A DNA stretch of 64,000 bases from Massilia sp. 9096. Its GTDB lineage: Bacteria; Pseudomonadota; Gammaproteobacteria; Burkholderiales; Burkholderiaceae_D. The stretch lies in assembly GCF_000745265.1 (NCBI RefSeq), contig NZ_JQNN01000001.1, positions 620,001 to 684,000 on the forward strand, written 5' to 3'. The notes under the pieces are model-generated. The model had not been told where the DNA came from, ran no database searches, and saw only the letters and a program-made list of their open reading frames with translations. Made by a program: the position numbers and the translations under genes. This document shows, piece after piece, positions 26,462 through 46,035 of the stretch; within the stretch, counting starts at the first letter, position 1; every line of letters begins with the position of its first letter.

Positions 26462-26475
26462 GTTCGGTGCCGAAC
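26462..26475 (-). promoter_or_regulatory. GTNCG-N4-CGNAC box (site 1)
   Basis: GTTCG-GTGC-CGAAC with both half-sites perfectly inverted. It lies 38 bp upstream of the reverse gene starting at 26423. A -10-like TACACT (26439-26434) begins 29.5 bp from the box centre. The resulting leader would be only about 5 nt, so this member is less certain than the others. Confidence 0.45.
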
Positions 26476-26578
26476 TGAGCGGCGCGTGCGGTAACCCGGC
26501 GGGCCCGAATATCGGTCGAGCCGTGCGAACTGTAGCTGGCCTCCACCTCCACCTCAGCCGCCCGTGCGGCCGAGCGGC

Positions 26579-27157
26579 TTACTTCTTGCGCTTGGCGGCC
26601 GCAACCTCGCCGGCGGCCGTCGCCGGACGCACGCTGCCGCAATCGGCGCCGAGCCAGCGGCCGGCCACGTCCATGTTCACGACCTGGTTCGGCTGGTCCT
26701 GGTTATGGATGCGCATCTGCGCGCGGTAGGTGGTCGGGCTGTCGACCGTCATCTCGCCTTCGCCGCTGGCGTGCGGGCGCGTACAGGTGAAGCTGACCTG
26801 CAGCCGGTTGTCGCCGGCCGGCGTCATCTGCGTGCGGCAGTCGCCTTCCTGGATCGGCAGCTGCTTGCGCTCGATCATTTCGCGCGTGATGCACAGCTTG
26901 CTGCTCATGGCGCCGTTGGCCAGGTCCATCTGCACGCCGTTCTGCTGCATCATCTGCTGCACGTGCTGGCGCTGCTCGGGCGACAGGTTGGCGATCATTT
27001 TCTGGATGTCGCTCATGTTGGCCTGCACCTTGCCGTCCGAATAGGTGGCGTTGTTGGTCTGCTCCCACAGGCCCGGTTTCATGTCCTGGGCGAAGGCCGG
27101 CAGGGCGAGGGCGGTGCTCGAGGCCAGCAGGGCAATGAGGGTCGTGCGGATGTTCAT
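26579..27157 (-). CDS. DUF3617 family periplasmic protein
   Basis: A 192-residue protein with a signal peptide (cleavage after AFAQ, about residue 24). DUF3617 features follow: DMKPGLWEQTNN at the mature start, MSSKLCITREMIE and CRTQMTPAG with conserved cysteines, and TCTRPHASGEGEMTVDSPTTYRAQM. The family is exported and of unknown function. The C-terminus is Ala/Lys-rich (TAAGEVAAAKRKK). An AGGAG-type site precedes the ATG at 27157. It lies between the NUDIX gene and the large membrane protein, all on the same strand. Confidence 0.85.
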   Translation of the reverse strand: MNIRTTLIALLASSTALALPAFAQDMKPGLWEQTNNATYSDGKVQANMSDIQKMIANLSPEQRQHVQQMMQQNGVQMDLANGAMSSKLCITREMIERKQLPIQEGDCRTQMTPAGDNRLQVSFTCTRPHASGEGEMTVDSPTTYRAQMRIHNQDQPNQVVNMDVAGRWLGADCGSVRPATAAGEVAAAKRKK

Positions 27158-27200
27158 GCGTAGTACTCCTGTGTTCTTCGTGTGTTTTATCGGTGTCGGG

Positions 27201-27800
27201 TCAGGACGCTTCGCCGTGCCGTCCGAGCACGGTGCGTTCCAGGTGGCGCAGCAGCAGCACGGTCTTGATGTCGAGGATGGCGCCGGTGTCGATCATCGCC
27301 AGCGCGTCGTCGAAGTCGAGCTCGACGACCTCGATCGATTCGCCTTCTTCATGCAGGCCGCCGCCGGCGCCGCTGCGCCGTGCGCGGTCGTATTCGGCGA
27401 CGAACAGGTGCAGGCGTTCGGTCGTCACGCCCGGGCTGACCAGCAGTTCGAGCACCGGCTCGATATGCTCGACGTCGTAGCCGGTTTCCTCATGGGCCTC
27501 GATGCGGGCGCGCTCGGCGGGCGCGGCATCGTCGTCGAGCACGCCGGCCGCCGCTTCGAGCAGGAAGCCGTCGTGGCCGGCCAGGCGCGCGCCGATGCGG
27601 AACTGGCGCGTCAGCACGACCGAGCGGTGCTGGCGATTGTACAGCAGCACCGCGGCGCCGCCGGCGTTGGCATAGACTTCGCGGGTCAGGGTCTGCGCCT
27701 TGCCGTCGGGGCCGGTCTGTTCGTACGTGACTTTCTTGAGGGGGTAATAATTTTCCGAGATGATGTCTTCGCGGATGATGCGTACGGTGTCGTCAGCCAT
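27201..27800 (-). CDS. NUDIX hydrolase, GDP-mannose pyrophosphatase NudK-like
   Basis: A 199-residue NUDIX protein with NudK-like layout: N-terminal VRIIREDIISENYYPLKKVTYE, VVLTRQFRIGARLAGHDGFLLEAAAGVLD, a NUDIX box and PVLELLVSPGVTTERLHLFVAEY. The box reads GVLDDDAAPAERARIEAHEETGYD: the EE pair that binds the metal is kept. The first box glutamate is Ala and the RE arginine is Ile, where NudK has Glu and Lys. NudK cleaves GDP-mannose to GMP and mannose 1-phosphate; activity on that or another nucleoside diphosphate sugar is plausible but the altered box makes it uncertain. Confidence 0.85.
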   Translation of the reverse strand: MADDTVRIIREDIISENYYPLKKVTYEQTGPDGKAQTLTREVYANAGGAAVLLYNRQHRSVVLTRQFRIGARLAGHDGFLLEAAAGVLDDDAAPAERARIEAHEETGYDVEHIEPVLELLVSPGVTTERLHLFVAEYDRARRSGAGGGLHEEGESIEVVELDFDDALAMIDTGAILDIKTVLLLRHLERTVLGRHGEAS

Positions 27801-27854
27801 CGGTGATCCTGTGGAGCGTCATTGGATGCGGCACCCCAGCATACACCGGCGCGC

Positions 27855-28532: not shown

Positions 28533-28590
28533 GGCGGTTTCCTCCTCGTCAGGTGGCGCGAAGCCTCTCTTCTTGGACGGAGGAACGAGC

Positions 28591-28644
28591 AAAAAAAATC
28601 CGTTTCGGCGTCACGCCCTCGATTGGGCGCGACCACGAAACGGA
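28591..28644 (-). terminator. Rho-independent terminator for the 28726-28872 gene
   Basis: TCCGTTTCG (28599-28607) pairs with CGAAACGGA (28636-28644), with a further inner stem. On the reverse strand it is followed by eight T residues. It separates the small membrane-protein gene from the downstream OmpA-lipoprotein gene. Confidence 0.8.
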
Positions 28645-28725
28645 CCGCTCAGGGTATTGCAGTGATCGACTTGACGTTCAGTTTGACGTCGAGCTTTTAA
28701 TGCGCAGCTGCTTATGATTCGAATT

Positions 28726-28872
28726 CTAGATGCCGCGGCCACTGATCAGGCGCACCAGGATCATGATGATCGCAACGACCAGCAGGACGTGGATGAAGCC
28801 GCCGATGGTGTAGGAAGTGACCAGGCCGAGCAGCCACAGGATGATGAGAATGACAGCGATAGTGTAGAGCAT
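28726..28872 (-). CDS. 48-residue Lmo0937-family membrane protein
   Basis: A very small gene: MLYTIAVILIILWLLGLVTS, then a turn with YTIGGFIH, then LLVVAIIMILVRLISGRGI. Two hydrophobic segments predict a hairpin in the inner membrane. It matches the Lmo0937 family of tiny stress-associated membrane proteins by length and pattern. A GAGGACA element precedes the ATG. A regulon-type box (28950-28963) lies 78 bp upstream and a terminator follows, so this is a single-gene unit. Molecular role is unknown. Confidence 0.85.
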   Translation of the reverse strand: MLYTIAVILIILWLLGLVTSYTIGGFIHVLLVVAIIMILVRLISGRGI

Positions 28873-28949
28873 GATAATGTCCTCGTTTTGTTAGTGACGG
28901 CGTTTTGTTTGCCGTGAATCCAGTATCTACGTATTGATGGCTGCGCTCC

Positions 28950-28963
28950 GTTCGATGCCGTAC
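28950..28963 (-). promoter_or_regulatory. GTNCG-N4-CGNAC box (site 2)
   Basis: GTTCG-ATGC-CGTAC, 78 bp upstream of the small membrane-protein gene starting at 28872. A -10-like GATACT begins 29.5 bp from the box centre on the reverse strand, giving a leader of about 43 nt. Confidence 0.55.
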
Positions 28964-28964
28964 A

Positions 28965-29186
28965 TTACGCTAAGGATTTTTGTTCTTTTCGCAATCCCGG
29001 GACCCAACCCATGAAGCCCATCAGCCCGGTGCAGCCGATCAGGCAGGTGAGTAGGCCGCCGCTGATCAGGAAGATGACGTCCTGGGCCGCGACGTCGGTG
29101 CCGGGCTGCGGCGCAGCGTTCGCCAGACCGAAGCCGGTCACCACGAGTCCCCAGAGGATGATGCCGATCCATGCAAGGCTGTTCAT
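28965..29186 (-). CDS. Small two-helix membrane protein, unknown
   Basis: A 73-residue protein with hydrophobic segments at about 5-25 (WIGIILWGLVVTGFGLA) and 38-62 (VIFLISGGLLTCLIGCTGLMGFMGW), then a basic tail RKEQKSLA. Probably an inner-membrane protein. The start at 29186 (MNSLAWIG) has AAAGGAG 7 nt upstream. A regulon-type box with perfectly inverted half-sites lies 57 bp before the start. I do not recognise a family. Confidence 0.75.
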   Translation of the reverse strand: MNSLAWIGIILWGLVVTGFGLANAAPQPGTDVAAQDVIFLISGGLLTCLIGCTGLMGFMGWVPGLRKEQKSLA

Positions 29187-29242
29187 GTGTGCTCCTTTCT
29201 GTTGAGTTCGGACGATTCTTGCCTGCATGCGACAGTATGTCC

Positions 29243-29256
29243 GTGCGCTAACGCAC
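29243..29256 (-). promoter_or_regulatory. GTNCG-N4-CGNAC box (site 3)
   Basis: GTGCG-CTAA-CGCAC, perfectly inverted half-sites, 57 bp upstream of the gene starting at 29186. On the reverse strand a -10-like AAGAAT begins exactly 29.5 bp from the centre, the geometry of an activator site centred at -41.5. Confidence 0.65.
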
Positions 29257-29273
29257 GTTGCGATTTAGAAATT

Positions 29274-29328: not shown

Positions 29329-30222
29329 TCAGGCGGTGCGCAGCGTCCCCTTGACCACGCGCACGCGGTCACCCGCGCGCCATTGCGGCACGCTGTGCTG
29401 GTGGAAGGTACGCAGGGTGCCGTCGTCGAGGCGCACCCGGATTTCATAGCTGTGATTGGCGTGCATATTGCCCTCGACCTGGTTGCCTACCACCGCGCCG
29501 CCGACGGCGCCGGCCACCGTGGCCAGCGAACGGCCGTTGCCGCTGCCAATCTGGTTGCCGAGCAGGCCGCCCAGGATGGCGCCGGCGCCCGCGCCGACGC
29601 CGCTGCCGCGCGCGCGCGTCACGATCTCGCGGATCGATTCGACGTTGCCGCAGCTCGCACACCAGCGGCTGCCGTTGTCGGTATCGGCCAGGCGGGCCGG
29701 TTTTTGCGTGGACGGCGGGTTGGTGTCGCGTTCGGCCTGGGGCGATGCGTAGGCGGTGGACGGCGCGTTGTCATAGGCGACGCCGGAGCCGGTCGAGCCC
29801 TGGTTGCCGCTGTAGCCATACGCACTGCCGGCCGGCGCGGCCGCCGCAGCAGCGGCAGGGACGCCGGCAGGCGCGACCACCGGAGGCGTGTAGCCGTTGG
29901 CCGGCGCCAGGCTGGCGCCGTTCGCGGCGGCGGCGCCGTTGGCGGCATAGGCCGGGGCGGGCTGGCCCGGCAGGTCGGCGTTCGAGACCGGCTGGCCGGG
30001 CAGGGCGGCGGCAGCCTGCGGGGCGTTCGCCGGCTGCATGCCGGCCGCCAGCGTCGCGCGGTCGGCGTCGCTCAGGCCGTTGCGGTTGCTGCCGTGCGAA
30101 GACGGCAGCCAGCCCATGACGGCGGCGATGCCAACCGCGCAAAACAGGATCACGGCCAGCGCGGCGATCAGCAGCAGCGGATGCTGGCGCGGCCGGGCGT
30201 TCATCGGGGTCGGTGTGTTCAT
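29329..30222 (-). CDS. Membrane-anchored glycine zipper 2TM protein with SH3-like end
   Basis: A 297-residue protein. One N-terminal membrane helix (about 15-38) is not followed by a cleavage site, so it is likely an anchor. A long Ala/Pro/Gly-rich linker follows (about 45-175), including a WCASCGNVESI motif with two Cys. The glycine-zipper 2TM domain is about 205-250 (GAILGGLLGNQIGSGNGRSLATV). The C-terminal ~45 residues (YEIRVRLDDGTLRTF...GDRVRVVKGTLRTA) resemble the same domain in the lipoprotein at 37760-38221. It spans the inner membrane with most of the protein in the periplasm. A regulon box lies 99 bp upstream and a terminator behind it. Confidence 0.85.
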   Translation of the reverse strand: MNTPTPMNARPRQHPLLLIAALAVILFCAVGIAAVMGWLPSSHGSNRNGLSDADRATLAAGMQPANAPQAAAALPGQPVSNADLPGQPAPAYAANGAAAANGASLAPANGYTPPVVAPAGVPAAAAAAAPAGSAYGYSGNQGSTGSGVAYDNAPSTAYASPQAERDTNPPSTQKPARLADTDNGSRWCASCGNVESIREIVTRARGSGVGAGAGAILGGLLGNQIGSGNGRSLATVAGAVGGAVVGNQVEGNMHANHSYEIRVRLDDGTLRTFHQHSVPQWRAGDRVRVVKGTLRTA

Positions 30223-30320
30223 GGCGAATCCTTTCTTCTTGCTTGTTGGATGAGTGGGGCGCCTTTTATTTCCCCATAAGTTCGGTACTGGCATTGTCCT
30301 TGTCAACAACATCATGTTCC

Positions 30321-30334
30321 GTGCGTCACCGTAC
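30321..30334. promoter_or_regulatory. GTNCG-N4-CGNAC box (site 4), between the glycine-zipper gene and the Crp/Fnr gene
   Basis: GTGCG-TCAC-CGTAC in the 237-bp divergent gap. On the reverse strand a -10-like GACAAT begins 29.5 bp from the centre (toward the gene starting at 30222). On the forward strand TACGCT occupies the same distance (toward the regulator gene at 30460). The box is placed for control of the glycine-zipper gene and perhaps for autoregulation. Confidence 0.6.
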
Positions 30335-30459
30335 ATACTTCCTCGTACACAGCAGCTACGCTGACCAAAAGTTGTCAGTAAAAGTCTCTGGGTGATGTAA
30401 ATACCTGATTTTTAACGTGAATCTATAGTCAGTAACGAGAAGTCAAGCGCGAGGGCCAG

Positions 30460-31191
30460 ATGAATTATCCTGCTGCACCGATGGTCGCCGAGCACAACGC
30501 CAACCTGCTGCTGGCCGCGCTCCCCCCTGGCGAGCTGGCGAGCATGTTGCCGGCGCTCGACCAGGTCCAGGTGGAGGCCGGCGCGGTGCTGTGCGAACCT
30601 GGCGACACGATCCGCCATATCTATTTTCCGCACGACTGCCTGATCTCGCTGATGGCCGTTGCCGAAGGCCGCATGACGCTCGAGGTCGGCCAGGTCGGAC
30701 GCGAGGGCATGCTCGGCGCCACGGTCGCGCTCGGGCACGAGACGACGCAGGTGCGCGCCGTCGTGCAGCGCGCCGGCAGCGCCAGCCGCATCGACGCCGA
30801 GCGGCTGCGCGCCGAATTCGCGCGCAATCCCTCGCTGCAGCGCGTGCTGTACCGCTACACCGACGCACTGCTGGCCCAGGCCATCCAGATCGCCGTGTGC
30901 AGCCGCTACCACGTGCTCGAGGCGCGCCTGGCGCGTTCGCTGCTCGTCACGCGCGATCGCCTGCAGTCCGACAAGTTTCACCTCACCCACGAATTCCTGG
31001 CGCACGCATTGGGCGTACGCCGCGTCGGCGTGACCAAGGCGGCCAGCGCGCTGCAACAGCACGGGCTGATCAACTACAGCCGAGGCAACATCGAGATCCT
31101 CGACCCGGTCGGCCTGGCCGCCACCGCCTGCACCTGCTACCAGATCGTGCGCGAAGCCGGGGCCAGCTTCGCGGCGCCGGCGTTTGCCTGA
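30460..31191 (+). CDS. Crp/Fnr-family transcriptional regulator
   Basis: A 243-residue regulator. Residues about 20-140 form a cyclic-nucleotide-type beta-roll (GAVLCEPGDTIRHIYFPHDCLISLM, VGREGMLGATVALG). The dimer helix is about 140-165. The C-terminal winged helix has HEFLAHALGVRRVGVTKAASALQQHGLINYSRGNIEILD; the recognition segment GVRRVGVTKAA belongs to the widespread GVRRxxVT subgroup, not CRP or FNR proper. The FNR iron-sulfur cysteine set is absent from the N-terminus. GAGGG precedes the ATG. It sits in the middle of the envelope-stress island, with a shared inverted-repeat box 126 bp upstream, making it the leading candidate to bind those boxes. The ligand is unknown. Confidence 0.9.
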   Translation: MNYPAAPMVAEHNANLLLAALPPGELASMLPALDQVQVEAGAVLCEPGDTIRHIYFPHDCLISLMAVAEGRMTLEVGQVGREGMLGATVALGHETTQVRAVVQRAGSASRIDAERLRAEFARNPSLQRVLYRYTDALLAQAIQIAVCSRYHVLEARLARSLLVTRDRLQSDKFHLTHEFLAHALGVRRVGVTKAASALQQHGLINYSRGNIEILDPVGLAATACTCYQIVREAGASFAAPAFA

Positions 31192-31709: not shown

Positions 31710-32030
31710 TCATTTGAGGCGCAGGTCATTCCTGACCGATTTCACGCCCGTTACTGTACGCGCAACCGCAGCGGCGGTTGCCACGTCGTCCGCCGAGCTG
31801 ACATAGCCGCTCAGCTGGACGACACCGTTGACGGTGTCGACCTGGATCTCGCTGCCTTTCAGCACCGCTTCGCCGGCGATCGCGCTGCGAACCCCGGTGC
31901 TGACGGCGGCATCGGCAACCGGCCGTTCGGCCGCCGGGTTGGCGGCGCTCCTGGCGCTGCTCGCGCATCCTGTTGCCGTGCTCAGCATCAGGGCCGCCAG
32001 TAGCGCCGCCGTGCTTGCGCTGGTGTTCAT
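31710..32030 (-). CDS. BON-domain lipoprotein
   Basis: A 106-residue protein. The signal ends ATGC (lipobox, about residue 22). One BON domain (about 42-106) has AVSTGVRSAIAGEAVLKGSEIQVDTVNGVVQLSGYVSS and a KSVRNDLRLK ending, as in OsmY and its relatives. It is probably periplasmic, anchored to a membrane and lipid binding. First gene of a two-gene unit with the OsmB-like gene. A near-consensus box lies 62 bp upstream. A second BON protein is encoded at 39025. Confidence 0.9.
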   Translation of the reverse strand: MNTSASTAALLAALMLSTATGCASSARSAANPAAERPVADAAVSTGVRSAIAGEAVLKGSEIQVDTVNGVVQLSGYVSSADDVATAAAVARTVTGVKSVRNDLRLK

Positions 32031-32091
32031 TTCCGGTTCCTGTCGGTGCTTCAGACTGGCTCCAGATTACGTGCGCACGATTTGGCGGTCT

Positions 32092-32105
32092 GTGCGACGA
32101 CTCAC
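32092..32105 (-). promoter_or_regulatory. GTNCG-N4-CGNAC box (site 5, one mismatch)
   Basis: GTGCG-ACGA-CTCAC, one mismatch in the right half, 62 bp upstream of the BON gene start at 32030. TAATCT on the reverse strand begins 29.5 bp from the centre. It lies in the gap between the BON gene and the stop of the AsmA gene. Confidence 0.5.
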
Positions 32106-32136: not shown

Positions 32137-34209
32137 TCAGTGCTTCGCGCTCTTGCCCGGCGGCGGGGCGGTCGGCTTGACGTGCGCGTCGGCCAGCAGT
32201 TTCGCGCACGGGCTCTGCTCGCCCGGACCGGTGTTGATCAGCGGGAGCAGAGCGGCCACCGGCGCCGCGACCACGGCCAGCGCCGCCGCCGCGCCACCCT
32301 TGATCGCCAGCACCTTCTTGTCGAGCGCCAGGTCGGGCTTCTTGAAGGTGCCCTTGACGTAGAACGGCGTACGCAGCGTGAACAGGCGCAGGCCCTTGGT
32401 CTCCGGCTTGACGCGCAGGTTCATTTGCTCGGACGCCAGGTTCACCGAGCCATTGACGTCGACGATCGCTTCCTCGGTGTCGAGCACGAAGTAGCGCGTC
32501 TGCGCAGTGCCGTTGGTCACTTGCAGGTCCGAGGCCAGGCAGTTCAGCCTGACTTCCTTGTCGCCGAACAGCTTGGTGACGACGATGTTGGCGACGTTCA
32601 GGCCGGCCTCCTCGAGCAGCAGCTTGCTGACCACGCCCTGGCTGACCAGGCCCTTCACCTCCCCGTTGGCGCCGGCCAGCATGCCGGCGACCGAATCGCC
32701 GGTCGAGGTCAGCTTGACGTCGGCGTTGAGCTCGCCGACCGTGGCCTGCTGGATCTTCTGGATCTTCGGGAACAGCTGCTTGATCTGCACGTGACGCGCG
32801 GTGGCGTCGAGGGTGGCCTTGATGGCGTCCTTGCCGGTGCCGTTGCCACTGCCGTCGAGCTTGATGTTGGAATTGACCTGGCCGCCGGCCAGCACGAAGT
32901 TCAGTGGCTGCAGCGACAGCACGCCGTCGTTCATCACCAGGTGGGTCTGCAGCTTGGACAGCGGCAGGCCGGCATCCTTGACGATGCGGTCGGCCGAGAA
33001 GCGCACGTCGGCGTCCAGCTTCTTCCATTTCTCGGTGTGGAACTTCTCGACCGGCAGCGCCTTGTCTTCCGGCTGCACGGTGTCGACGCCTCTTGCGCGC
33101 TTTTCGGCGTTGGAGTCGGCGCCGACCAGCGGGCCGAGGTCGGCAAAGCGCAGCTGGTGCGAGACGATCTTGCCGGTCAGCTTGTCGCGCGGTTTGCCGG
33201 TGGTGAATTCCATGCCGCCCGCGATGTCGGATTCACCGACCTTGCCGGTGAAGTTCTCGTACTTCCACTGGCTCTTGTTCTCGCCCAGGCTGCCGGTCAG
33301 GTGACCCGCGGTCGAGTAGGCCGGGGTCTCGGGCAGCACCACGCCGGTGAAGGCGTACAGGCGCGCCATCGACGGGCCGGCCAGCTTGAGCTGCAGGTCG
33401 ATGCCGGCCAGGTGGGCCGGGTTGGTGACGGTGCCCTCGACCGCGATGCGGCTGTTGGCCGAGTGCACGTCGGCCTGGACCGGGAACCGGATGTCCGATT
33501 CGGTCAGCGACAGCACGGTGCCGGTCTTGCCGCCGCCGCCGACCGGGCTGCCGTTGTAGCTGCCGCTCAGGGTCCAGGCCAGGCCGTAGGTCGGATCGTT
33601 CTGCAGCGTGTTGATGTTGGCGGTGACGTCGGCCTTGGTGACCGCGTCCTTGACGTGCACCACGCCCTGCGTCAGCACCAGGCGCTCGAGGTCGAGCTTC
33701 CACTTCGATTTTTTATCGTCGTGCTTGAAGGCCCAGTTGTAATGCTCGGCATCCAGGCGCAGCAGCTCGGCCTGCGGGCCGTCGAAGCGCAGCACCGGCA
33801 CGTGGATGCGGTGGCCGAGCAGGGCGAACGGATCGAGCGAGAACGAGAACTGGCGCACGCTGGCCATGTCGCGCTGGGGCAGGTCGGCCGGATTGCCGAC
33901 ATGGACGTCGTCGGCGTACAGGTGCGGCCACGGAATATAGTCGCGCCAGCTGCGTTCGCCCTTCGGGATGCTCTTGGCCGGCACTTCCCAGTGCACGGCG
34001 AGGTTCCCGCGGATCGCGAACGGGCGGTCGATGGCGTCGCTGACCTTGGCGTTGAGCCAGGGCTTGGCGCGGTTCCAGTCGAACGTGAGCAGGATGACGA
34101 TGGCGATGACGGGAATCGCCACCAGGATACCGACGATCCAGAGGGTAATCTTAAGCGGGCGCTTCATGTGCGTCGCCGCGTGCGGCTGAGGTTTTAGAGT
34201 CGTAGTCAT
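32137..34209 (-). CDS. AsmA family protein
   Basis: A 690-residue AsmA-type protein. A short cytoplasmic N-terminus precedes one membrane helix (about 18-42, ITLWIVGILVAIPVIAIVILL). A long periplasmic beta-rich body follows with the AsmA start FDWNRAKPWLNAKVSDAIDRPFAIRGNL and an AsmA C-terminal part (GALNADVKLTST-like repeats, VNGSVNLASEQMNLRVKPE). Proteins of this family bridge the periplasm and affect phospholipid transport and outer-membrane balance. AGAAGGAC precedes the ATG at 34209; a second possible start is at 34167. A box (34271-34284) lies 62 bp upstream and is shared with the divergent DUF4398 operon. Confidence 0.9.
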   Translation of the reverse strand: MTTTLKPQPHAATHMKRPLKITLWIVGILVAIPVIAIVILLTFDWNRAKPWLNAKVSDAIDRPFAIRGNLAVHWEVPAKSIPKGERSWRDYIPWPHLYADDVHVGNPADLPQRDMASVRQFSFSLDPFALLGHRIHVPVLRFDGPQAELLRLDAEHYNWAFKHDDKKSKWKLDLERLVLTQGVVHVKDAVTKADVTANINTLQNDPTYGLAWTLSGSYNGSPVGGGGKTGTVLSLTESDIRFPVQADVHSANSRIAVEGTVTNPAHLAGIDLQLKLAGPSMARLYAFTGVVLPETPAYSTAGHLTGSLGENKSQWKYENFTGKVGESDIAGGMEFTTGKPRDKLTGKIVSHQLRFADLGPLVGADSNAEKRARGVDTVQPEDKALPVEKFHTEKWKKLDADVRFSADRIVKDAGLPLSKLQTHLVMNDGVLSLQPLNFVLAGGQVNSNIKLDGSGNGTGKDAIKATLDATARHVQIKQLFPKIQKIQQATVGELNADVKLTSTGDSVAGMLAGANGEVKGLVSQGVVSKLLLEEAGLNVANIVVTKLFGDKEVRLNCLASDLQVTNGTAQTRYFVLDTEEAIVDVNGSVNLASEQMNLRVKPETKGLRLFTLRTPFYVKGTFKKPDLALDKKVLAIKGGAAAALAVVAAPVAALLPLINTGPGEQSPCAKLLADAHVKPTAPPPGKSAKH

Positions 34210-34270
34210 GGCCGTCCTTCTGGCAGGAGATGGGTTGACAGCAGGTTAACGTAAAGTCCCCTCGACCAAT

Positions 34271-34284
34271 GTGCGGTGTCGCAC
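34271..34284. promoter_or_regulatory. GTNCG-N4-CGNAC box (site 6), AsmA / DUF4398 divergent promoter
   Basis: GTGCG-GTGT-CGCAC, perfectly inverted half-sites, 62 bp before the AsmA start (34209) and 109 bp before the lipoprotein start (34393). TAACCT on the reverse strand begins 29.5 bp from the centre. The forward position is less convincing. Confidence 0.6.
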
Positions 34285-34392
34285 CGTGCGCCCCCTTACT
34301 GCTGGGTGTCGGCCTCTCAATGTGCGCCACCGAACTGATCTCGCCGGCCTGGAGGGTTATAACGTTACCAACACCGCACTTGACCGGAGAAC

Positions 34393-34788
34393 ATGATGGA
34401 CACGAAATCGATTAATTGGTTGGCGCGCCTCGGCGCTGCCGCCGCAGTGCTGGCCCTGAGCGCCTGCGCCAGCCCGGAAAAGACCCCGGCCACGGCGGCC
34501 GTCGCGGTCTCGCACAATGCCGTCGATAACGCGGTCTCGTCCGGGGCGCCGGAGCTGGCGCCGGTCGAACTGACGTCGGCGCGCGACAAGATGATGCGCG
34601 CCAACCAGGCGCTGGCCGCCAAGGATTACAAGACCGCGCGCCAATTGGCGATGGAGGCCCAGGCCGACGCCAAGCTGGCCCAGAGCAAGGCCGATTCGGC
34701 CAAGTCGACCGCTGCCGCCAACCAGGTGGACGCCGACCTGCGCGCGCTGCGTCAGCAGGTCGACCGCGCCAACTCGGACCAGCAATAA
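34393..34788 (+). CDS. DUF4398 lipoprotein
   Basis: A 131-residue protein. The signal ends in lipobox LSAC. The DUF4398 body starts ELAPVELTSARDKMMRANQALAAKDYKTARQLAMEAQADAKLAQSKA: a helical repeat resembling TPR or coiled-coil, probably in the periplasm. GGAG precedes two adjacent ATG codons (34393, 34396); either may start translation. First gene of a run (34393-37475) of six same-strand genes with short gaps that ends before a large hairpin region. It pairs with the next gene, which has the same kind of helical region plus an OmpA domain. Confidence 0.85.
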   Translation: MMDTKSINWLARLGAAAAVLALSACASPEKTPATAAVAVSHNAVDNAVSSGAPELAPVELTSARDKMMRANQALAAKDYKTARQLAMEAQADAKLAQSKADSAKSTAAANQVDADLRALRQQVDRANSDQQ

Positions 34789-34798
34789 AGGAGACGTG

Positions 34799-35728
34799 AT
34801 GCAAACCAAGGCCATGAAACCAAGCTTCCTTGCGTCCCTCGTGCTCGCTTCCAGCCTGGTGCTGAGCGCCTGCAGCACGATGCCGACCACCACGCCGACG
34901 CTGGACGAGGCGCGCGCCGACTTCGTCGCCGCCAACAACAACCCGCAGGTGTCGAGCTACGCCGCGCTCGAGTTCAAGCAGGCCAGCGACGCGCTCGACG
35001 CCGCCAACCAGGCCGCGGCCAAGCGCGACAGTCTCGACAACATCGATCGCCTGGCCTACATCGCCAAGCAGCGCATCGCCAGCGCGCAGGAAGTGGCCAA
35101 GGCCAAGGCCGCGCAGGCCGAGATCGCCAACGCCGGCCGCGAACGCGACCGCGTGCAGGCCGAGGTGCGCGTGGCCGAGGCGGACCGCGCCAAACGCGAC
35201 GCCCAGGCCCAGGCAGCCCAGGCCCAGGCCCAGGCCGCCGACGCCCAGATGCAGGCCCAGGCCGCGCAGCAGACCGCCGCCGCGCTGGCCGAGCGCTCGG
35301 CGCGGCTGGAAGCGCTGCTGGTCGAGCTGCACGCGCAGAAAACCGAGCGCGGCATGGTCGTCACGATCGGCGACGTCCTGTTCGCCACCGACCGCGCCGA
35401 CCTGACCCCGGCCGGCATGCAGAGCGTGCGCAAGCTGGCCGACGTCATGATGCAGAACCCGGACCGCACGGTCTCGGTCGAAGGATTTACGGACAGTACT
35501 GGTAGCGCCGCACACAACCAGGACCTGTCCCAGCGCCGCGCCGCCGCGGTGGCCCAGGCCCTCGCCGGCATGGGCGTACCGGCCGCACGCGTGGCGACGC
35601 GCGGCTACGGCGAGGCCTATCCGGTCGCGTCGAACGACAGCGCCGCCAACCGCCAGCTGAACCGCCGCGTCGAGATCGTCCTGTCGAACGACAACGCACC
35701 GATCCCGCCGCGCGCAGCCCAGCGCTGA
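34799..35728 (+). CDS. OmpA-domain lipoprotein with DUF4398-like coiled coil
   Basis: A 309-residue protein. Lipobox LSAC near residue 25; a DUF4398-like segment (TLDEARADFVAANNNPQVSSYAALEFKQASDALDAANQAAAKRD); a long Ala/Gln-rich coiled coil (about 105-175); then a C-terminal OmpA domain with GDVLFATDRADLTPAGMQSV, VEGFTDSTGSAAHNQDLSQRRAAAV and NRQLNRRVEI. It is a rod-like outer-membrane lipoprotein bound to peptidoglycan. The start ATG at 34799 was chosen over the GTG at 34796 because AAGGAG is well spaced. It lies 10 nt after the previous stop. Confidence 0.9.
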   Translation: MQTKAMKPSFLASLVLASSLVLSACSTMPTTTPTLDEARADFVAANNNPQVSSYAALEFKQASDALDAANQAAAKRDSLDNIDRLAYIAKQRIASAQEVAKAKAAQAEIANAGRERDRVQAEVRVAEADRAKRDAQAQAAQAQAQAADAQMQAQAAQQTAAALAERSARLEALLVELHAQKTERGMVVTIGDVLFATDRADLTPAGMQSVRKLADVMMQNPDRTVSVEGFTDSTGSAAHNQDLSQRRAAAVAQALAGMGVPAARVATRGYGEAYPVASNDSAANRQLNRRVEIVLSNDNAPIPPRAAQR

Positions 35729-35765
35729 GCGGCATCTTCATACTTAAAACAAGGACACATTTAAC

Positions 35766-36302: not shown

Positions 36303-36352
36303 AACCAGCTCGACAAATTACCCCACCACCCACCAATAACAAGGAGCACGAC

Positions 36353-36691: not shown

Positions 36692-36708
36692 CAAGGAGCG
36701 GGGCAGTC

Positions 36709-37095
36709 ATGGATACCAAAGAAACCGTCGTGCACAGCCCCGGCCTCATGGGGGGAATCACGGGTCTGGCCAAGAACCTGTTCGGCCTGATCGTCTCGCG
36801 CGCGGAACTCGCCGCGCTCGAACTGACCGAAGTGCGCAACCATGCGATCGAGCTGATCGTCATCTTCGCGATGGCGGCGCTGGCCACCTGGTTCGCACTG
36901 GCCTACGGCACCGCGACCATCGTGATGCTGGCATGGGACGATCTGGGCTGGAAGATCCTGCTCATCATGTTCATCGTGTTCCTCCTCATCACCGCTGCGC
37001 TGGTCGCCAAGGGCTTGTCGATGCTGAAGCAGGGCAAGCTGGCCTTTCCGGAAACGATGAAGGAACTGCGCAACGACCGCGACATGCTGTTGTAA
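36709..37095 (+). CDS. YqjE-like (DUF1469, phage holin 3_6 superfamily) membrane protein
   Basis: A 128-residue protein with two membrane helices (about 48-70 and 80-103: LIVIFAMAALATWFALAYG, ILLIMFIVFLLITAALVA). The amphipathic start LAKNLFGLIVSRAELAALELTE is also typical. The holin name comes from similarity only; there are no phage genes around and the layout is that of chromosomal yqjE. It lies 17 nt after the YqjD-like gene with AAGGAG upstream. Confidence 0.88.
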   Translation: MDTKETVVHSPGLMGGITGLAKNLFGLIVSRAELAALELTEVRNHAIELIVIFAMAALATWFALAYGTATIVMLAWDDLGWKILLIMFIVFLLITAALVAKGLSMLKQGKLAFPETMKELRNDRDMLL

Positions 37096-37121
37096 TCCAA
37101 CCAGATCGAAGGGGAGAAGCT

Positions 37122-37475
37122 ATGAAGGACGCACACGTTGGATCGCATGAACAGCGCAAGCGCGCGCTGTTGCGCGATGCCGAGTTCTACCGCGCAGGCG
37201 TTGTCCATGCGCGCGCACAGATCAAGCACGATGCACAGCCGCAAGTGATCTTCCACTCGGTGGTCGATCACGCGACCTGGGTCTTGCGCGCGCGCGCGGA
37301 CGCCCTGCTCAAGCCGACCGGCACCAGCATCTCGGTGCTGGCGCCGTACGCCATGACCGCGCTGGGCTTCATCCGCAAGCGCCGTCTCGGCAAGCAGGCG
37401 ATCGGCGCGGCCGCGCTGCTCGGCGCACTCGGTTGGTATGTGCAGCGCAAACGCGCGCAACAAGTGGCATACTAA
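37122..37475 (+). CDS. Small basic membrane-associated protein at the YqjK position
   Basis: A 117-residue basic protein, helical N-terminal part (HEQRKRALLRDAEFYRAGVVHARAQIKHD) and a weakly hydrophobic C-terminal stretch ending GAAALLGALGWYVQRKRAQQVAY. It is not clearly homologous to YqjK, but it has the same place in the operon, and the same mix of basic residues and a late hydrophobic segment. GGGGAGAAG precedes the ATG. Last gene of the 34393-37475 run; hairpins follow. Confidence 0.75.
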   Translation: MKDAHVGSHEQRKRALLRDAEFYRAGVVHARAQIKHDAQPQVIFHSVVDHATWVLRARADALLKPTGTSISVLAPYAMTALGFIRKRRLGKQAIGAAALLGALGWYVQRKRAQQVAY

Positions 37476-37759: not shown

Positions 37760-38221
37760 TCAGTAGCGATACACGCGGCCGTCGACGATGCGCACACGGT
37801 TGCCGGAACGCAGGTCATACACGCTGTCCTGCACCACCGTGCGGTACTCGCCATTGTCCAGTCGCACGTTAATCGAGTACATCTGCTGGCCTTCGGTATC
37901 GCGGTTCTGCTCGACGCGGTTGCCGATCAGGGCGCCGCCGACGCCGCCGGCCACGGTCGCGGCCGTGCGTCCGCCGCCGCTGCCGACCTGGTTGCCTGCC
38001 AGCGCGCCGACAAGGCCGCCGACGATCGCGCCGGCGCCGCTGGTGCGGGCTTGGCCCGAGGTCGGCTGGATCGATTCGATCGTGCCGTAGCCGGCCGACG
38101 CCGTGTTGTTGTAGTTGCTTCGGTAGCCGTCATCCGCATACGAGCTCGGGTTGTTGCTGGCGCAGCCGCCGAGGATTGCGCTTGCCGCCAGCAGGGCGGC
38201 GAGGGTGCGTGTGGCTTTCAT
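37760..38221 (-). CDS. Glycine zipper 2TM lipoprotein
   Basis: A 153-residue protein. Lipobox LGGC (about residue 20); a linker with TIESIQPTSGQARTSGAGA; the glycine zipper GLVGALAGNQVGSGGGRTAATV; and a C-terminal YSINVRLDNGEYRTVVQDSVYDLRSGNRVRIVDGRVYRY that matches the end of the protein at 29329-30222. Members resemble SlyB-like outer-membrane lipoproteins. The start at 38221 has AAGGAGAA upstream. A box lies 59 bp before the start. Confidence 0.9.
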   Translation of the reverse strand: MKATRTLAALLAASAILGGCASNNPSSYADDGYRSNYNNTASAGYGTIESIQPTSGQARTSGAGAIVGGLVGALAGNQVGSGGGRTAATVAGGVGGALIGNRVEQNRDTEGQQMYSINVRLDNGEYRTVVQDSVYDLRSGNRVRIVDGRVYRY

Positions 38222-38279
38222 GGCGTGTTCTCCTTGCAAAGGTGTAAATCCAGGTTAAGCAGTCAGCCATTGGGGGTCT

Positions 38280-38293
38280 GTACGATGGCGCAC
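38280..38293 (-). promoter_or_regulatory. GTNCG-N4-CGNAC box (site 7)
   Basis: GTACG-ATGG-CGCAC, 59 bp upstream of the lipoprotein gene starting at 38221. TAACCT on the reverse strand begins 29.5 bp from the centre, identical in sequence and spacing to the AsmA promoter. Confidence 0.6.
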
Positions 38294-38340
38294 GCTCCCC
38301 GTTGCGCCTGGACCATAGTTCTTCCTTCCTGATTTCTTGT

Positions 38341-38354
38341 GTTCGGCACCGTAC
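38341..38354 (+). promoter_or_regulatory. GTNCG-N4-CGNAC box (site 8)
   Basis: GTTCG-GCAC-CGTAC, 67 bp upstream of the gene at 38421. TAAAAC at 38377-38382 begins 29.5 bp from the centre. The same 199-bp divergent gap thus holds two boxes, one for each gene. Confidence 0.6.
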
Positions 38355-38420
38355 AGAAAAGCCTCTTACAGCAGAGTAAAACGTAACCTGTAGCAAATAG
38401 AAAAACAAAAGGAAAAATAA

Positions 38421-38969
38421 ATGCGATCACCTCATTCGATTCTGCTGATCGGTGCGGCGCTGCTGTGGGCCGCGAGCCATGTGCATGCCGCGACGCCGCA
38501 AGCCAAGCTGGCTTATCAGCAGGCGCGCGATGCGGCCGGCGCAAATTACAAGAGTGCGCGTGCGCAGTGCAATAGCGTGACCGGCAATCCGCGTGACCTG
38601 TGCATCGCCGAAGCCGAGGCCGCGCGCGTGCGCACCGAGGAAGAAGCGCGCGCCAAATACGAAGATACGCTCGACGCCTACACCCGGGCGCGCATGCGCA
38701 TCGCCGACGCCAACTACGACCGCGACAAGACGCGCTGCGCGGCGCTGACCGGCAACGACAAGGATGTCTGCAAGGAGCAGGCCAAGGCCACGCTGATCGC
38801 GGCCCAGGCCGACGCCAAGGCCGACCAGAAGACCATCGAGGCGCGCAACGAAGCGCGCCAGGACAAGCTCGCCGCGGCCTACAAGGTCGCGATCGAAAAG
38901 TGCGACGCCTTCGCCGGCGCCGCCAAGGATCAATGCGTCTCGGCCGCCAAGACCGAGTTCGCACGATAG
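38421..38969 (+). CDS. Exported helical protein with three CX10C repeats
   Basis: A 182-residue protein with a signal peptide (cleavage near VHAATPQ, about residue 23) and a highly helical, charged mature part. Three segments share a pattern: Cys-NSVTGNPRDL-Cys, Cys-AALTGNDKDV-Cys and Cys-DAFAGAAKDQ-Cys, each CX10C, spaced about 50 residues apart with helices rich in Ala, Lys and Glu between. In the periplasm these could form three disulfides. I do not recognise a named family. GGAAAAATAA before the ATG is a modest ribosome binding site. A regulon box lies upstream and a BON gene follows 55 nt after. Confidence 0.8.
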   Translation: MRSPHSILLIGAALLWAASHVHAATPQAKLAYQQARDAAGANYKSARAQCNSVTGNPRDLCIAEAEAARVRTEEEARAKYEDTLDAYTRARMRIADANYDRDKTRCAALTGNDKDVCKEQAKATLIAAQADAKADQKTIEARNEARQDKLAAAYKVAIEKCDAFAGAAKDQCVSAAKTEFAR

Positions 38970-39024: not shown

Positions 39025-39339
39025 ATGAACATGACCAAACGTATCGCTACCGCCATCCTGACCGCCAGCGTCGCCTTCACCGTCGTCGGCTGCGCGTCGA
39101 ACGGCCAGCACGAAAGCACCGGCCAGTACGTCGACGACGCCGCCATCACCACCAAGGTGAAGGCTGCCATCTTCGCCGACCCGGGCGTGAAGTCGACCGA
39201 AGTCAACGTCGAGACCTACCAGGGCACCGTGCAGCTGTCGGGCTTCGTCTCGGATCCGGTCGCCGCCCAGAAAGCCGGCGAAGCCGCGCGCAGCGTCAAG
39301 GGCGTGACCTCGGTGAAAAACGATATCCGCGTAAAATAA
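39025..39339 (+). CDS. BON-domain lipoprotein (second copy)
   Basis: A 104-residue protein. The signal ends VVGC (lipobox); the BON domain is about 40-104 (YVDDAAITTKVKAAIFADPGVKSTEVNVETYQGTVQLSGFVSDPV, end VTSVKNDIRVK). It is paralogous to the gene at 31710. A GGAGTC element precedes the ATG. It follows the CX10C-repeat gene on the same strand and probably shares its promoter. Confidence 0.9.
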   Translation: MNMTKRIATAILTASVAFTVVGCASNGQHESTGQYVDDAAITTKVKAAIFADPGVKSTEVNVETYQGTVQLSGFVSDPVAAQKAGEAARSVKGVTSVKNDIRVK

Positions 39340-41952: not shown

Positions 41953-42987
41953 TTACTGCACGCGGCGTTCGATGGTGATCTGCTCGACTTCCACGCGGCG
42001 GTTCGGCGCCAGGCAGGCGATCAGGTCTGCACGCTTCTTCTGGTGGCAGTCGGTCACGACCGGGTTCTCTTCGCCCTTGCCGTGGGTCTGCAGGCGGCTG
42101 GCGTCGACACCCTTGCCAACCAGGTAGGCCTTGACGGCGTCGGCGCGGCGCTGCGACAGCTTGTGGTTGTACTTGCTCGAACCCAGGCGGTCGGTGTAGC
42201 CGGTGATGTCCACGTCGGTGATCGAGGTGTCGGCCTGCATTGCGGCGGCGATGTCGTCCAGCTTCGGCTGCGGCATCGACAGGGTGGCGCTATCGAAGCC
42301 GAACAGGTCGGTCGACGACAGGGTCACCTTCTCGAAGCGTGCCGGCGGCGGCGGCGGCGGAGCGACTGGTTCCGGAGCCGGCGGCGGGGTTTCAGCAACC
42401 GGCGGTGCCGGCGGTGCCGGCGGGATCGGGCGCGGCGGCGGGCTGAACGCGTAGTTCAGGCCCACGGTGACGTAGCGGGTGTTGGCTTTGGAGAAGCCGA
42501 ACTTGTCGTCGTCGCGCAGGTTGCTGCGCACTTCGCGCACGTCGGCCTGCAGCGACCACTGGTCGGTCAGGCTCGCCTGGAAGCCGACGCCGGCGGTGTA
42601 GTAGGGAGACCAGCCGTTAGCGTGGCGAATCGGATTGCGCTCGTGGTCGTACTCGCCGCCCACGCCGACCAGCAGGTACGGACGGAAGGCTTTGCGCGAC
42701 AGCATCAGCAGCGCGTCGACGCCGACCAGGCCCTGGCCGTACTTGTAGTCGCCGTTGTTGGCTTCAGCATAGGTGGCGCCAGCCTGGATGTCCCACAGCG
42801 GGTGCACGGCCTTGCCGAACTTGATGCCGCCACCGGCTTGCTTCTTGTCGATCACGAAATCGTGGTCGGGCTTGATGCCGACGACGGTCGGAGCAACGTA
42901 CCACGACGGGTTCACGATATCCGTATCCTGGGCCATTGCCGAACCGGCAGAGCACAAGAAGGCGGCAGCCAGAGCGATCTTCTTCAT
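41953..42987 (-). CDS. OmpA family outer-membrane protein
   Basis: A 344-residue OmpA/OprF-type protein. A signal peptide (cleavage after AMAQ, about residue 20), an N-terminal eight-stranded barrel (about 21-195, SWYVAPTVVGIKPDHDF, GVGFQASLTDQWSLQADVREVRSNL), a proline-rich hinge (PPPRPIPPAPPAPP and further) and a C-terminal OmpA domain. That domain has LFGFDSATLSMPQPKLDDIA, ITGYTDRLGSSKYNHKLSQRRADAV and APNRRVEVE. A CX10-12C pair (TDCHQKKRADLIAC) occurs in the OmpA domain. It is a major structural porin-like anchor to peptidoglycan. A palindromic box lies 102 bp upstream. Confidence 0.93.
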   Translation of the reverse strand: MKKIALAAAFLCSAGSAMAQDTDIVNPSWYVAPTVVGIKPDHDFVIDKKQAGGGIKFGKAVHPLWDIQAGATYAEANNGDYKYGQGLVGVDALLMLSRKAFRPYLLVGVGGEYDHERNPIRHANGWSPYYTAGVGFQASLTDQWSLQADVREVRSNLRDDDKFGFSKANTRYVTVGLNYAFSPPPRPIPPAPPAPPVAETPPPAPEPVAPPPPPPARFEKVTLSSTDLFGFDSATLSMPQPKLDDIAAAMQADTSITDVDITGYTDRLGSSKYNHKLSQRRADAVKAYLVGKGVDASRLQTHGKGEENPVVTDCHQKKRADLIACLAPNRRVEVEQITIERRVQ

Positions 42988-43619
42988 ATTATTCACAGGT
43001 AACTCCCATAAGTTGTAAAGGTACTGACATCGCATGTCTGAACAGAGATGTTGATGCCAAGCTTACAAGTCAGCAGTTCCGTAGGTCAGTGCGGTACCGC
43101 ACCTACGAACCGTCTGCCGTGGTAATTCTACAACGTGTGCAGAAATACCACAGTCCGCGCATGTTTCCGATTGTTACCAATATCGCTCGGGATTGTTGTA
43201 TTAGCCCCATTTGCAGCGTACTTGCGCTAACCAAGAGATATGGAAATTGCGCAAACACGGAGAGAATTGTCATAATTGCACCGTCTCATGTCATTGAAAC
43301 GCCACACGGCACGACACGCGAAATGTTGCCCGCATTTGTATCATTTCTGCGTATTTACGTAAAAAGAGTCCGCGTTTCATATTCAACAGTGTTTCTAGCT
43401 CATCAATCGATTTCGATGTGCTTGCCTCTGAGCGGGCTGATGGTTTAATAACTTTCAGAAATTTTTAGCAATGTGGTCTGGCGCACAGACCAGGGGGTGG
43501 TGCGACAGGCAATCTTGTAACCAGTTAAGCGGAACCGAAGTGTTGTCCAACGGTCATACGAAGCACACGACGGTCCGGGCCATACCAGAACACAGTCTTT
43601 ATTTACGGAGCAAACCAAT
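42988..43619. other. 632-bp AT-rich intergenic region between divergent genes
   Basis: No gene supported. The left end holds the ompA promoter with a regulon-type box (43089-43102). The rest (about 43130-43480) is markedly AT-rich and full of short ATTG/TTCATA tracts, unlike the GC-rich surroundings. It may contain the promoter of the wHTH gene at 43620, an unannotated small RNA, or foreign DNA. I saw no tRNA, rRNA or clear terminator in it. Confidence 0.5.
43089..43102 (-). promoter_or_regulatory. GTNCG-N4-CGNAC box (site 9)
   Basis: GTGCG-GTAC-CGCAC, a fully palindromic 14-mer, 102 bp upstream of the ompA-like start (42987). A -10-like TGTAAG on the reverse strand begins 28.5 bp from the centre, 1 bp off the spacing seen at the other sites. 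Confidence 0.6.
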
Positions 43620-44225: not shown

Positions 44226-44261
44226 TTCGCGCCACCCAAATCCGCGCCCAGCCGGGCGCCG

Positions 44262-44296
44262 ACGCCACCCCGCCAACCGGCCGGGTGGCGTTTTTT
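44262..44296 (+). terminator. Rho-independent terminator after the wHTH gene
   Basis: ACGCCACCC (44262-44270) pairs with GGGTGGCGT (44283-44291) and is followed by a six-T run, 37 nt after the stop. Confidence 0.9.
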
Positions 44297-44367
44297 CTTG
44301 AAAAAGCAGTCATCTTGAAAAACCGATAAGCGAGCCAATATGGCAAGCAAATCAACAAGGAGAGAGC

Positions 44368-45117
44368 ATGTTACCGAGCGCCGCATCGCTGGAAGGAAAA
44401 CCCGTTCCCCGCGCCGTGTTCAAGGTGCGCACCGACAACGCATGGCGCGACGTCACGACCGACGAGCTGTTCAACGGCAAGACCGTGGTCGTGTTCGCGC
44501 TGCCCGGCGCTTATACGCCGACCTGCTCGTCGTCGCACCTTCCGCGCTATAACGAATTGGCCGGCGTGCTGCGCGAGAACGGCGTCGACGAGATCGTCTG
44601 CATCGCCGTCAACGACGCCTTCGTGATGAATGCCTGGAAGGGCGGCCAGGAAGCCGACCATATCACCATGATCCCGGATGGCAACGCCGACTTCACCGAG
44701 GGCATGGGCATGCTGGTCGACAAGCGCGAACTCGGCTTCGGCAAGCGCTCCTGGCGTTATTCGATGCTGGTGCGCGACGGCGTCATCGAAAAAATCTTCA
44801 TCGAGCCCGACAAGGAAGGCGATCCGTTCGAGGTGTCGGACGCCGACACCATGCTCAAGCACGTCAACCCGGACGCCGTGCCGCCCGAGCCGGTCGTGAT
44901 GTTTTCCAAACCGGGCTGTCCGTTCTGTGCGCGCGCAAAAGCATTGCTCAAGGCGCGCGGCATCGCGTTTACCGATATTCCGCAAGACCACAAGATCAAT
45001 ACCAGCGTATTGCGGGCGGTCTCGGGCGGGACTACCTGGCCCCAGGTGTTCATGGGTGGCCGGCTGATCGGCGGCCTGGATGCCGTGGAAGCGCATTTCG
45101 CACCCACCAGCTTCTGA
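44368..45117 (+). CDS. Peroxiredoxin-5/glutaredoxin fusion protein
   Basis: A 249-residue hybrid (hyPrx5 type). The N-terminal Prx5 domain (about 1-165) has the peroxidatic Cys at about 53 in PGAYTPTCSSSHLP. The C-terminal glutaredoxin domain (about 172-249) has CPFC in VVMFSKPGCPFCARAK and the GSH-binding TTWPQVF and GGLD segments. Such fusions reduce hydroperoxides with glutathione without a separate thioredoxin. GGAGAG precedes the ATG. The stop overlaps the next start by 1 nt (TGATG), so it is coupled to the MtfA-like peptidase. Confidence 0.94.
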   Translation: MLPSAASLEGKPVPRAVFKVRTDNAWRDVTTDELFNGKTVVVFALPGAYTPTCSSSHLPRYNELAGVLRENGVDEIVCIAVNDAFVMNAWKGGQEADHITMIPDGNADFTEGMGMLVDKRELGFGKRSWRYSMLVRDGVIEKIFIEPDKEGDPFEVSDADTMLKHVNPDAVPPEPVVMFSKPGCPFCARAKALLKARGIAFTDIPQDHKINTSVLRAVSGGTTWPQVFMGGRLIGGLDAVEAHFAPTSF

Positions 45118-45992
45118 TGGAAGCCGCTTTGGCCTATGTCGTGCTGGCCGGCGCCTTGCTGCTGGCCTGGTGGCTGCCACGCCGCCGCCTGAACGCGGCC
45201 CTGGCGCGGCCGCTGGACCCGAGCGAACTGGCCATCATCGAGCGCAACGTCGCGCAATACCTCGGCATGCCCGAGGCCCTGCGTGGGCAGCTGCAGCGTC
45301 TGGTCAAGCAGTTCCTGCACCAGAAGCGTTTCGTCGGCTGCGCCGGGCTGGAGCTTACGCAGGAAATGCGCGTGACGATCGCCGCCCAGGCTTGCCTGCT
45401 GCTGGTCGGACGCACAGGCCGGGACGCGCGGGTCTATCCCGAACTGCGCACGATCCTGGTCTATCCGGGCGCCTTCCTGGTGCCGCGCCGCCAGCAGGAC
45501 GAGGCCGGCGTGGTGAGCGAAACGCGCCACGATCTGCTGGGCGAGTCGTGGAGCGATGGCCGCGTGATCCTGTCCTGGGAGCACGTGCGCCGCGCCGGCT
45601 TGCCGCCCGAGGGCACGCACAACGTGGTGCTGCACGAATTCGCGCACCAGCTCGACAGCGAGTCGGGCAGCAACAATGGCGCGCCGTATCTCGGCAGCGC
45701 GGAACGCTACCGCAGCTGGTCCCAGACGCTGTCGCGCGATTTCGAGCTGCTGCGCCGCGATACCTATTTCGGCTACCGCGACGTGCTCGATCCCTACGGC
45801 GCCACCAGCCCCGCGGAATTCTTCGCGGTCGCTACCGAAACCTTTTTCGAGCAGCCGCACGCGCTGGCCGAGCGCCACCCCGAGCTGTACCACGAATTCC
45901 AGAAATACTACCGGGTCGACCCGCGCGCGTGGATGATGGCGCCGCGCCAGGAACCCGCGTATGCCGGCGTGGTCTATGGACAGTGGCAGTAA
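45117..45992 (+). CDS. mtfA: Zinc-dependent peptidase, MtfA (M90) family
   Basis: A 291-residue protein with one N-terminal membrane segment (about 3-22) and a metallopeptidase domain. The HEFAH zinc motif is at about 173-177 (VVLHEFAHQLDSESG) and the distal glutamate region in FFAVATETFFEQP. E. coli MtfA acts as an aminopeptidase modulated by the glucose regulator Mlc; this organism need not have Mlc. An N-terminal helix is unusual beside E. coli MtfA and suggests membrane attachment. It starts inside the stop of the peroxiredoxin gene. Confidence 0.88.
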   Translation: MEAALAYVVLAGALLLAWWLPRRRLNAALARPLDPSELAIIERNVAQYLGMPEALRGQLQRLVKQFLHQKRFVGCAGLELTQEMRVTIAAQACLLLVGRTGRDARVYPELRTILVYPGAFLVPRRQQDEAGVVSETRHDLLGESWSDGRVILSWEHVRRAGLPPEGTHNVVLHEFAHQLDSESGSNNGAPYLGSAERYRSWSQTLSRDFELLRRDTYFGYRDVLDPYGATSPAEFFAVATETFFEQPHALAERHPELYHEFQKYYRVDPRAWMMAPRQEPAYAGVVYGQWQ

Positions 45993-46021
45993 GGACCTTG
46001 CCGGTGGCATGGCTGAGCTGC

Positions 46022-46035
46022 GTGCGTTTGCGAAC
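46022..46035 (+). promoter_or_regulatory. GTNCG-N4-CGNAC box (site 10)
   Basis: GTGCG-TTTG-CGAAC in the 102-bp gap upstream of the glycine-zipper gene at 46095 (59 bp before its ATG). A weak -10-like CATGCT begins 29.5 bp from the centre. It separates this gene from the peptidase gene upstream. Confidence 0.5.

Follow-up and report, generated by a model that had tools for sequence, protein, structure and literature searches.

A conserved GTNCG-N4-CGNAC box at class II activator position marks a putative Crp/Fnr-subclade regulon in Massilia sp. 9096

In the class II promoters of Escherichia coli CRP, the activator occupies a GTNNN-N4-NNNAC register that is centred at -41.5 and replaces the -35 element; the CRP box itself is TGTGA-N6-TCACA. 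We compared this arrangement with a 14-bp inverted repeat, GTNCG-N4-CGNAC (the box), which recurs in the promoter regions of a gene island in Massilia sp. 9096. The island lies in a stretch of 64,000 nucleotides (contig NZ_JQNN01000001.1, positions 620,001 to 684,000 of the forward strand), which we term the window and in whose numbering plain coordinates are given. It encodes a Crp/Fnr-family regulator (30460-31191, plus strand), our candidate activator. The likeness to CRP lies in the protein family, the 14-bp register and the centre at -41.5, whereas the present box reads TGTNCG-N4-CGNACA, with an inner CG, and does not conform to TGTGA-N6-TCACA. We find that the boxes belong to a real, conserved operator-promoter module, most likely that of a Crp/Fnr subclade. 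We propose, with a probability of roughly 0.83, that they are the operators of an undescribed regulon of this subclade, which would activate envelope- and stress-type genes and itself. When the regulator is aligned to the CRP sequence, the position of CRP Glu-181 is presumably a valine, and the Arg-Glu pair at CRP positions 180-181 is thus Arg-Val in the island protein, while many relatives have Arg-Glu. Loss of this glutamate was considered as the cause of the free third base of the box and was rejected, because relatives that have Glu there adjoin this box too, and its third base varies beside them as well. Base contacts have been assigned to positions 180, 181 and 185 (PMC12531629), and wTGTGAnnnnnnTCACAw has been called similar to the CRP consensus (PMC1274295).

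The latter source also gives the NnrR box of alphaproteobacteria as ctTTGcgnnnncgCAAag (TTGCG-N4-CGCAA) and the HcpR2 box as GTAACnnnnGTTAC (GTAAC-N4-GTTAC) (PMC1274295). As portrayed there, NnrR is a Crp/Fnr member whose box has the same inner CG-N4-CG, but its outer bases are TT and it controls denitrification genes, whereas here an outer GT stands before envelope/stress-type genes; we found no nir or nor genes among the annotated targets. The HcpR2 box shares the outer GT...AC and the 4-bp spacer, but its inner bases are AC instead of CG, and HcpR2 regulates hcp. Set beside these two, the Massilia box joins an outer GT, as in HcpR2, to an inner CG, as in NnrR. RedB of Rhodobacter capsulatus represents another formerly uncharacterised Crp/Fnr subgroup; it differs by a 12-bp non-palindromic, AT-rich motif and by a regulon that limits energy production (PMC9603854). 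A text search of the open-access literature, which is blind to sequence logos, returned no visible description of the present box or regulon, and the 2013 Crp/Fnr motif survey could contain the group. Our analysis points to a function for a Crp/Fnr subclade that is large but has no name, and it extends the known recognition specificities of a family that serves as a model for protein-DNA co-evolution. To our knowledge, BON, glycine-zipper, DUF4398, DUF5670, DUF3606 and PPOX-like genes are widespread, little understood and seldom linked to a regulator; with a defined box and a candidate activator, their control becomes directly testable.

The window contains 15 exact boxes, whereas 100 dinucleotide shuffles gave a mean of 3.52 (standard deviation 1.77, maximum 8). 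The chance rate is thus about 3.5 per window, and the expectation of about one match per 65 kb in the original prediction was too low. That prediction had listed ten sites in gaps between genes. Nine of them are exact and the one at 32092 carries a single mismatch, as claimed, but an exact intergenic site at 34322 had been missed. The placement in gaps holds, with ten of the 11 exact island matches being intergenic and the exception, at 26771, coding. As a look-elsewhere control, we scanned all 2,304 palindromes that can be written as abNde-spacer(0-8)-inverse. GTNCG with spacer 4 ranks fourth in the island (11 matches versus 0.9 expected), behind three codon-periodic CGNCG patterns with spacers 1, 7 and 4, at intervals of 3; in the rest of the window (outside 26000-47000) it falls outside the top eight. 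Among 44 loci from outside the genus it ranks first (142 versus 25 expected), and in 28 short regulator loci second (22 versus 2.7), there behind an unexplained CANAC pattern. Counted against control patterns, 35 genus neighbourhoods hold 284 boxes versus 1-84 for 15 controls. The 44 non-genus loci hold 129 versus 6-38 for 16 controls, with at least one box in 41 of them; the 40 order-level loci had been chosen from the top of the homologue list.

The boxes stand at a fixed distance from a -10-like hexamer. Sites with a TA...Y hexamer in place, pooled from genus and non-genus loci, yield the consensus TnTGTNCG-N-YR-N-CGNACAnA, whose half-site and spacing follow the CRP register (GT outermost, a span of 14 bp), with CG as the inner bases. 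For TA...T in the non-genus loci, the count is 52 at +29.5 from the box centre and does not exceed 6 at the other offsets listed. The genus neighbourhoods have 150 instances of TA...[TC] at +29.5, with 30.5 (50), 40.5 (41) and 31.5 (38) as the next offsets within 60, counts that are not independent because the promoters are orthologous. This spacing is the class II geometry, centred at -41.5 from the predicted start sites, and agrees with the activator-type box that had originally been proposed for this position. The eight hexamers named at 29.5 bp in that proposal are indeed in place (sites 26462, 28950, 29243, 30321, 32092, 34271, 38280 and 38341), of which AAGAAT at 29243 is a poor -10. When the -10 hexamers of the box promoters are pooled, TAnnCT is preferred, its fifth position being C, a preference reminiscent of sigma-S promoters.

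The box GTTCGGTGCCGAAC at 26462-26475 (minus strand; -10 TACACT, 26434-26439) precedes the gene 24330-26423 (PF10136). Two boxes on the same strand follow: one at 28950-28963 (GATACT, 28922-28927) before a DUF5670 gene (28726-28872), and one with GTGCG/CGCAC halves at 29243-29256 (weak -10 AAGAAT, 29215-29220) before a gene for a small protein without a Pfam match (28965-29186). The box at 30321-30334 faces two ways, with GACAAT (30293-30298, minus) toward a glycine-zipper gene (29329-30222) and TACGCT (30357-30362, plus) toward the regulator gene. The one-mismatch box at 32092-32105 (minus; TAATCT, 32064-32069) belongs to a BON gene (31710-32030), and the box at 34271-34284 (minus; TAACCT, 34243-34248) to an AsmA gene (32137-34209). 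The site at 34322-34335 (plus; TATAAC, 34358-34363, at +29.5) lies 57 bp upstream of a DUF4398 gene, in a gene run (34393-37475) that encodes DUF4398, DUF4398-OmpA, ferritin-like, DUF883 and holin-X-like proteins and includes 37122-37475. The divergent gap 38222-38420 holds two boxes with opposite targets, as originally noted: 38280-38293 (minus; TAACCT, 38252-38257) would serve a glycine-zipper gene (37760-38221), and 38341-38354 (plus; TAAAAC, 38377-38382) would serve 38421-38969, whose product has no Pfam match, together with a BON gene (39025-39339). Before the OmpA beta-barrel gene (41953-42987), the box (43089-43102, minus, GTGCG/CGCAC halves) has its -10 TAAGCT (43060-43065) at +30.5 and not at +29.5. 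The last box, 46022-46035 (plus), is weakly supported; its hexamer CATGCT (46058-46063, at +29.5) fits poorly, and its target 46095-46649 has a glycine-zipper match below threshold. Each of two divergent gaps (34243-34363 and 38252-38382) carries a pair of boxes, separated in the window by 51 and 61 bp, respectively; most genus loci show a similar spacing.

We traced the boxes through orthologous promoters, scoring an exact box within 260 bp upstream of every orthologue with a mapped start among 35 genomes. In line with the original reading of a regulon, exact boxes are retained at ten of the box promoters, in proportions of orthologues between 18/21 and 35/35: 18/21 for the 24330 gene, 33/35 each for the DUF5670 and 29186 genes, 23/23 for the glycine-zipper gene ending at 30222, 34/34 for the regulator, 26/26 for AsmA, 30/30 for DUF4398, 35/35 and 31/31 for the 38221 and 38421 genes, and 26/26 for OmpA. 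These counts overlap because divergent pairs share a gap: the 30222 and regulator genes count one and the same box, and each gene of the AsmA/DUF4398 and 38221/38421 pairs may count either box of the common gap. Seven control genes of the same island, some of which sit inside operons, have exact boxes in 0/11, 0/18, 1/31, 0/34, 0/21, 0/8 and 0/35 orthologues (1/158 in total). Since the controls reach up to 21/21 at one mismatch, one-mismatch counts are weak evidence.

The original prediction had named no factor, and the island regulator appears to be the best candidate, a choice with which the co-occurrence of box and regulator is consistent. Its N-terminal cNMP_binding domain (PF00027, 29 bits versus a cut-off of 27.5) is followed by a C-terminal HTH_Crp_2 domain (PF13545, 52 bits versus 27), and no other DNA-binding regulator above cut-off was found among the Pfam-scanned island proteins. 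None of the named NCBIfam Crp/Fnr equivalogs fits it (best 25.3 bits versus a cut-off of 274); by sequence, the nearest solved structures are NtcA and other Crp/Fnr proteins. The host genome (5.71 Mb, two contigs) has ten PF13545 matches, six of them above cut-off. A comparison with the regulator itself gives two places at E <= 0.001, namely the local gene and a 39-40% identical paralogue (C1:2035380-2036033) with the recognition helix LGVRRESIT. The subclade comprises 4,415 relatives at E <= 1e-30 among 7,999 candidates scored. Many order loci (L159, L161, L172, L173, L187 and others) have two to four neighbouring paralogues of the subclade; in many cases a single RRVG-type member is accompanied by at least one of the RREG type. 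In one single-contig genome, the regulator gene lies in two reading frames (G036:C1:2726078-2726802, locus L075), through a recent break or an assembly error, and the island there keeps 8 boxes.

Boxes also adjoin the regulator genes themselves. From named genome records we drew 140 relatives and retained the best 80, which come from Massilia, Telluria, Rugamonas, Janthinobacterium, Duganella and others; among these best 80, the closest are mostly Massilia. All 79 of these loci that have upstream sequence carry a box no more than 400 bp before the regulator; in 67 of them TA...T stands at +29.5 on the regulator side, and in 61 [TG]A...T stands on the side of the divergent gene. One box thus appears to serve two promoters. 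Nine of the 28 short regulator loci come from the order's own genomes and are not new evidence; in the 19 from outside the order a box is found in 10, and in 4/5 of those from another class.

Motif and protein family co-occur across the order. Among 399 genomes, a homologue at E <= 1e-40 is present in 123; six best candidates were scored per genome, and some absences may therefore be misses. We compared the motif GTDCGNTRNCGHAC with its reversed control after dropping two outliers, G049 (without the protein) and G337 (with it). The ratio of motif to control is 2585/1767 = 1.46 in 122 genomes with the protein versus 2010/2826 = 0.71 in 275 without it. The difference is positive in 26 of the 31 families that hold both kinds, and 0/5000 within-family permutations reach the observed mean. 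Genomes with close homologues have a ratio of 2.54 versus 1.21 for weaker homologues; this close group of 31 omits G086 despite the same cut, and adding its 19/16 gives 874/352 = 2.48. The two outliers show a strong one-strand excess of GTDCGNTRNCGHAC (78 versus 9 in G049, 39 versus 2 in G337), which suggests a repeated element containing the motif. Within the genus, the motif exceeds its reversed control in 52/62 genomes; G029, with 219 sites versus 113 reversed, has an excess of about 100, as do some large genomes of the genus.

The host genome as a whole has 144 motif sites versus 87 reversed. We classified the 81 GTDCG-N4-CGHAC sites that lie outside the island within the first 2.99 Mb of the main contig. 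Of these, 23 are intergenic versus 11.5 expected (binomial p 0.0007), given that coding DNA makes up a fraction of 0.858 of the fetched stretches; about half of these intergenic sites are expected by chance. This excess suggests that the regulon is not confined to the island. Together with promoter conservation and the fixed -10 distance, it also supports the undescribed regulon that had been predicted. Hexamers are in place, for example, at boxes before genes for an L,D-transpeptidase (TACGCT), a PPOX-like protein (TAAAGT) and a DUF6600 protein (TATTGT) and before the gene at contig position 959949 (GATAGT); other boxes precede genes for a second PPOX-like protein and for DUF3606, PRC-barrel, UvrA-like and topoisomerase IB proteins.

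We propose that the operators would be read by a Crp/Fnr subclade with a typical recognition helix LGVRR[V/E/S/A]x[V/I][T/S], as a dimer on TnTGTNCG-N-YR-N-CGNACAnA centred 41.5 bp, sometimes 42.5 bp, before the start. The box would replace the -35 and allow class II activation of promoters with a weak -10. The island factor would most likely be protein 30460-31191, activating its own gene from the shared two-way box, and the regulon would include genes of the glycine-zipper, BON, AsmA, OmpA and ferritin-like kinds, along with others of envelope or stress type. The term envelope stress, and with it any stress role, derives from gene content. As a tentative extension, a Crp/Fnr activator family across Pseudomonadota, often with neighbouring paralogues, might run a general stress/envelope programme through one box, two-way self-activating promoters and a non-cAMP signal.

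Several findings weigh against our proposal. The BON gene has an exact box in 3/34 orthologues only (26/34 with at most one mismatch); of nine examples displayed, seven have a GTGTG half, mostly with the -10 in place. Genomes and promoters are related, and the counts are thus not independent. Five of the 31 families run the opposite way, 13/28 short regulator loci have no box, and in 10/62 genus genomes the motif does not exceed its reversed control. Of the 62 genus genomes, G028 alone lacks a match to the local regulator at E <= 1e-50, yet 8 exact boxes remain in its rearranged island, most of them before related genes and three with a good -10 hexamer at +29.5. G028 retains the paralogue, which may thus bind these boxes, and no exact box was found in the 20 kb around the paralogue in G028, nor in the host at distances of up to 40 kb from it. 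The paralogue may recognise this box too; alternatively, the local gene was recently lost or is missing from the assembly. Shared specificity is favoured, since RREG-type loci elsewhere also have boxes. It is conceivable, if on balance unlikely, that the conserved paralogue is the main factor, or that both share the boxes, with the local gene as an accessory copy. Non-genus loci with boxes and no RRVG-type member in the fetched stretch (for example L077, L079, L163, L188 and L196) would fit this, although a member may exist elsewhere in these genomes, but the motif excess is strongest with the closest homologues of the local protein, and the box adjoins the local gene rather than the paralogue. 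Genome-wide counts as a clean natural knockout comparison within the genus were rejected: G028 has 84 sites versus 88 reversed, and nine genomes with the gene or a split copy likewise fail to exceed the control, while boxes persist in the G028 island. With TGTNCGNNNNCGNACA, G028 has 15 versus 3, like its relatives.

The five families without a positive association would also be compatible with the box of an unrelated dimeric factor, such as a response regulator, merely correlated with Crp/Fnr genes. This is improbable given the CRP-type 14-bp register, the class II position, and the fact that, in several families and in another class, the regulator genes have boxes in front of them. Repressor sites usually scatter; the single fixed -10 distance fits contact with RNA polymerase and makes a repressor operator, as opposed to an activator site, more improbable still. 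A chance or codon-usage artefact of GC-rich DNA could draw on the modest genome-wide excess and on the CGNCG patterns, which show that codon periodicity can make palindromes, but intergenic location, promoter conservation, the control genes and the within-family test argue strongly against it and leave it barely credible. A Crp/Fnr-subclade activator is thus our preferred reading.

Further palindromes and paired sites appeared in the same material. CTNGA-N5-TCNAG is an unexplained palindrome in the order-level loci (L157-L196 and L077-L080; 53 versus 7.0 expected), as is CTNGA-N8-TCNAG in the rest of the window (8 versus 0.3 expected). Sites of TGTCCG/CGGACA type occur in pairs, with a distance of 23-24 bp, at G013:C7:31647 and 31671 and at G061:C43:115816 and 115839, and are probably operators of a different factor.

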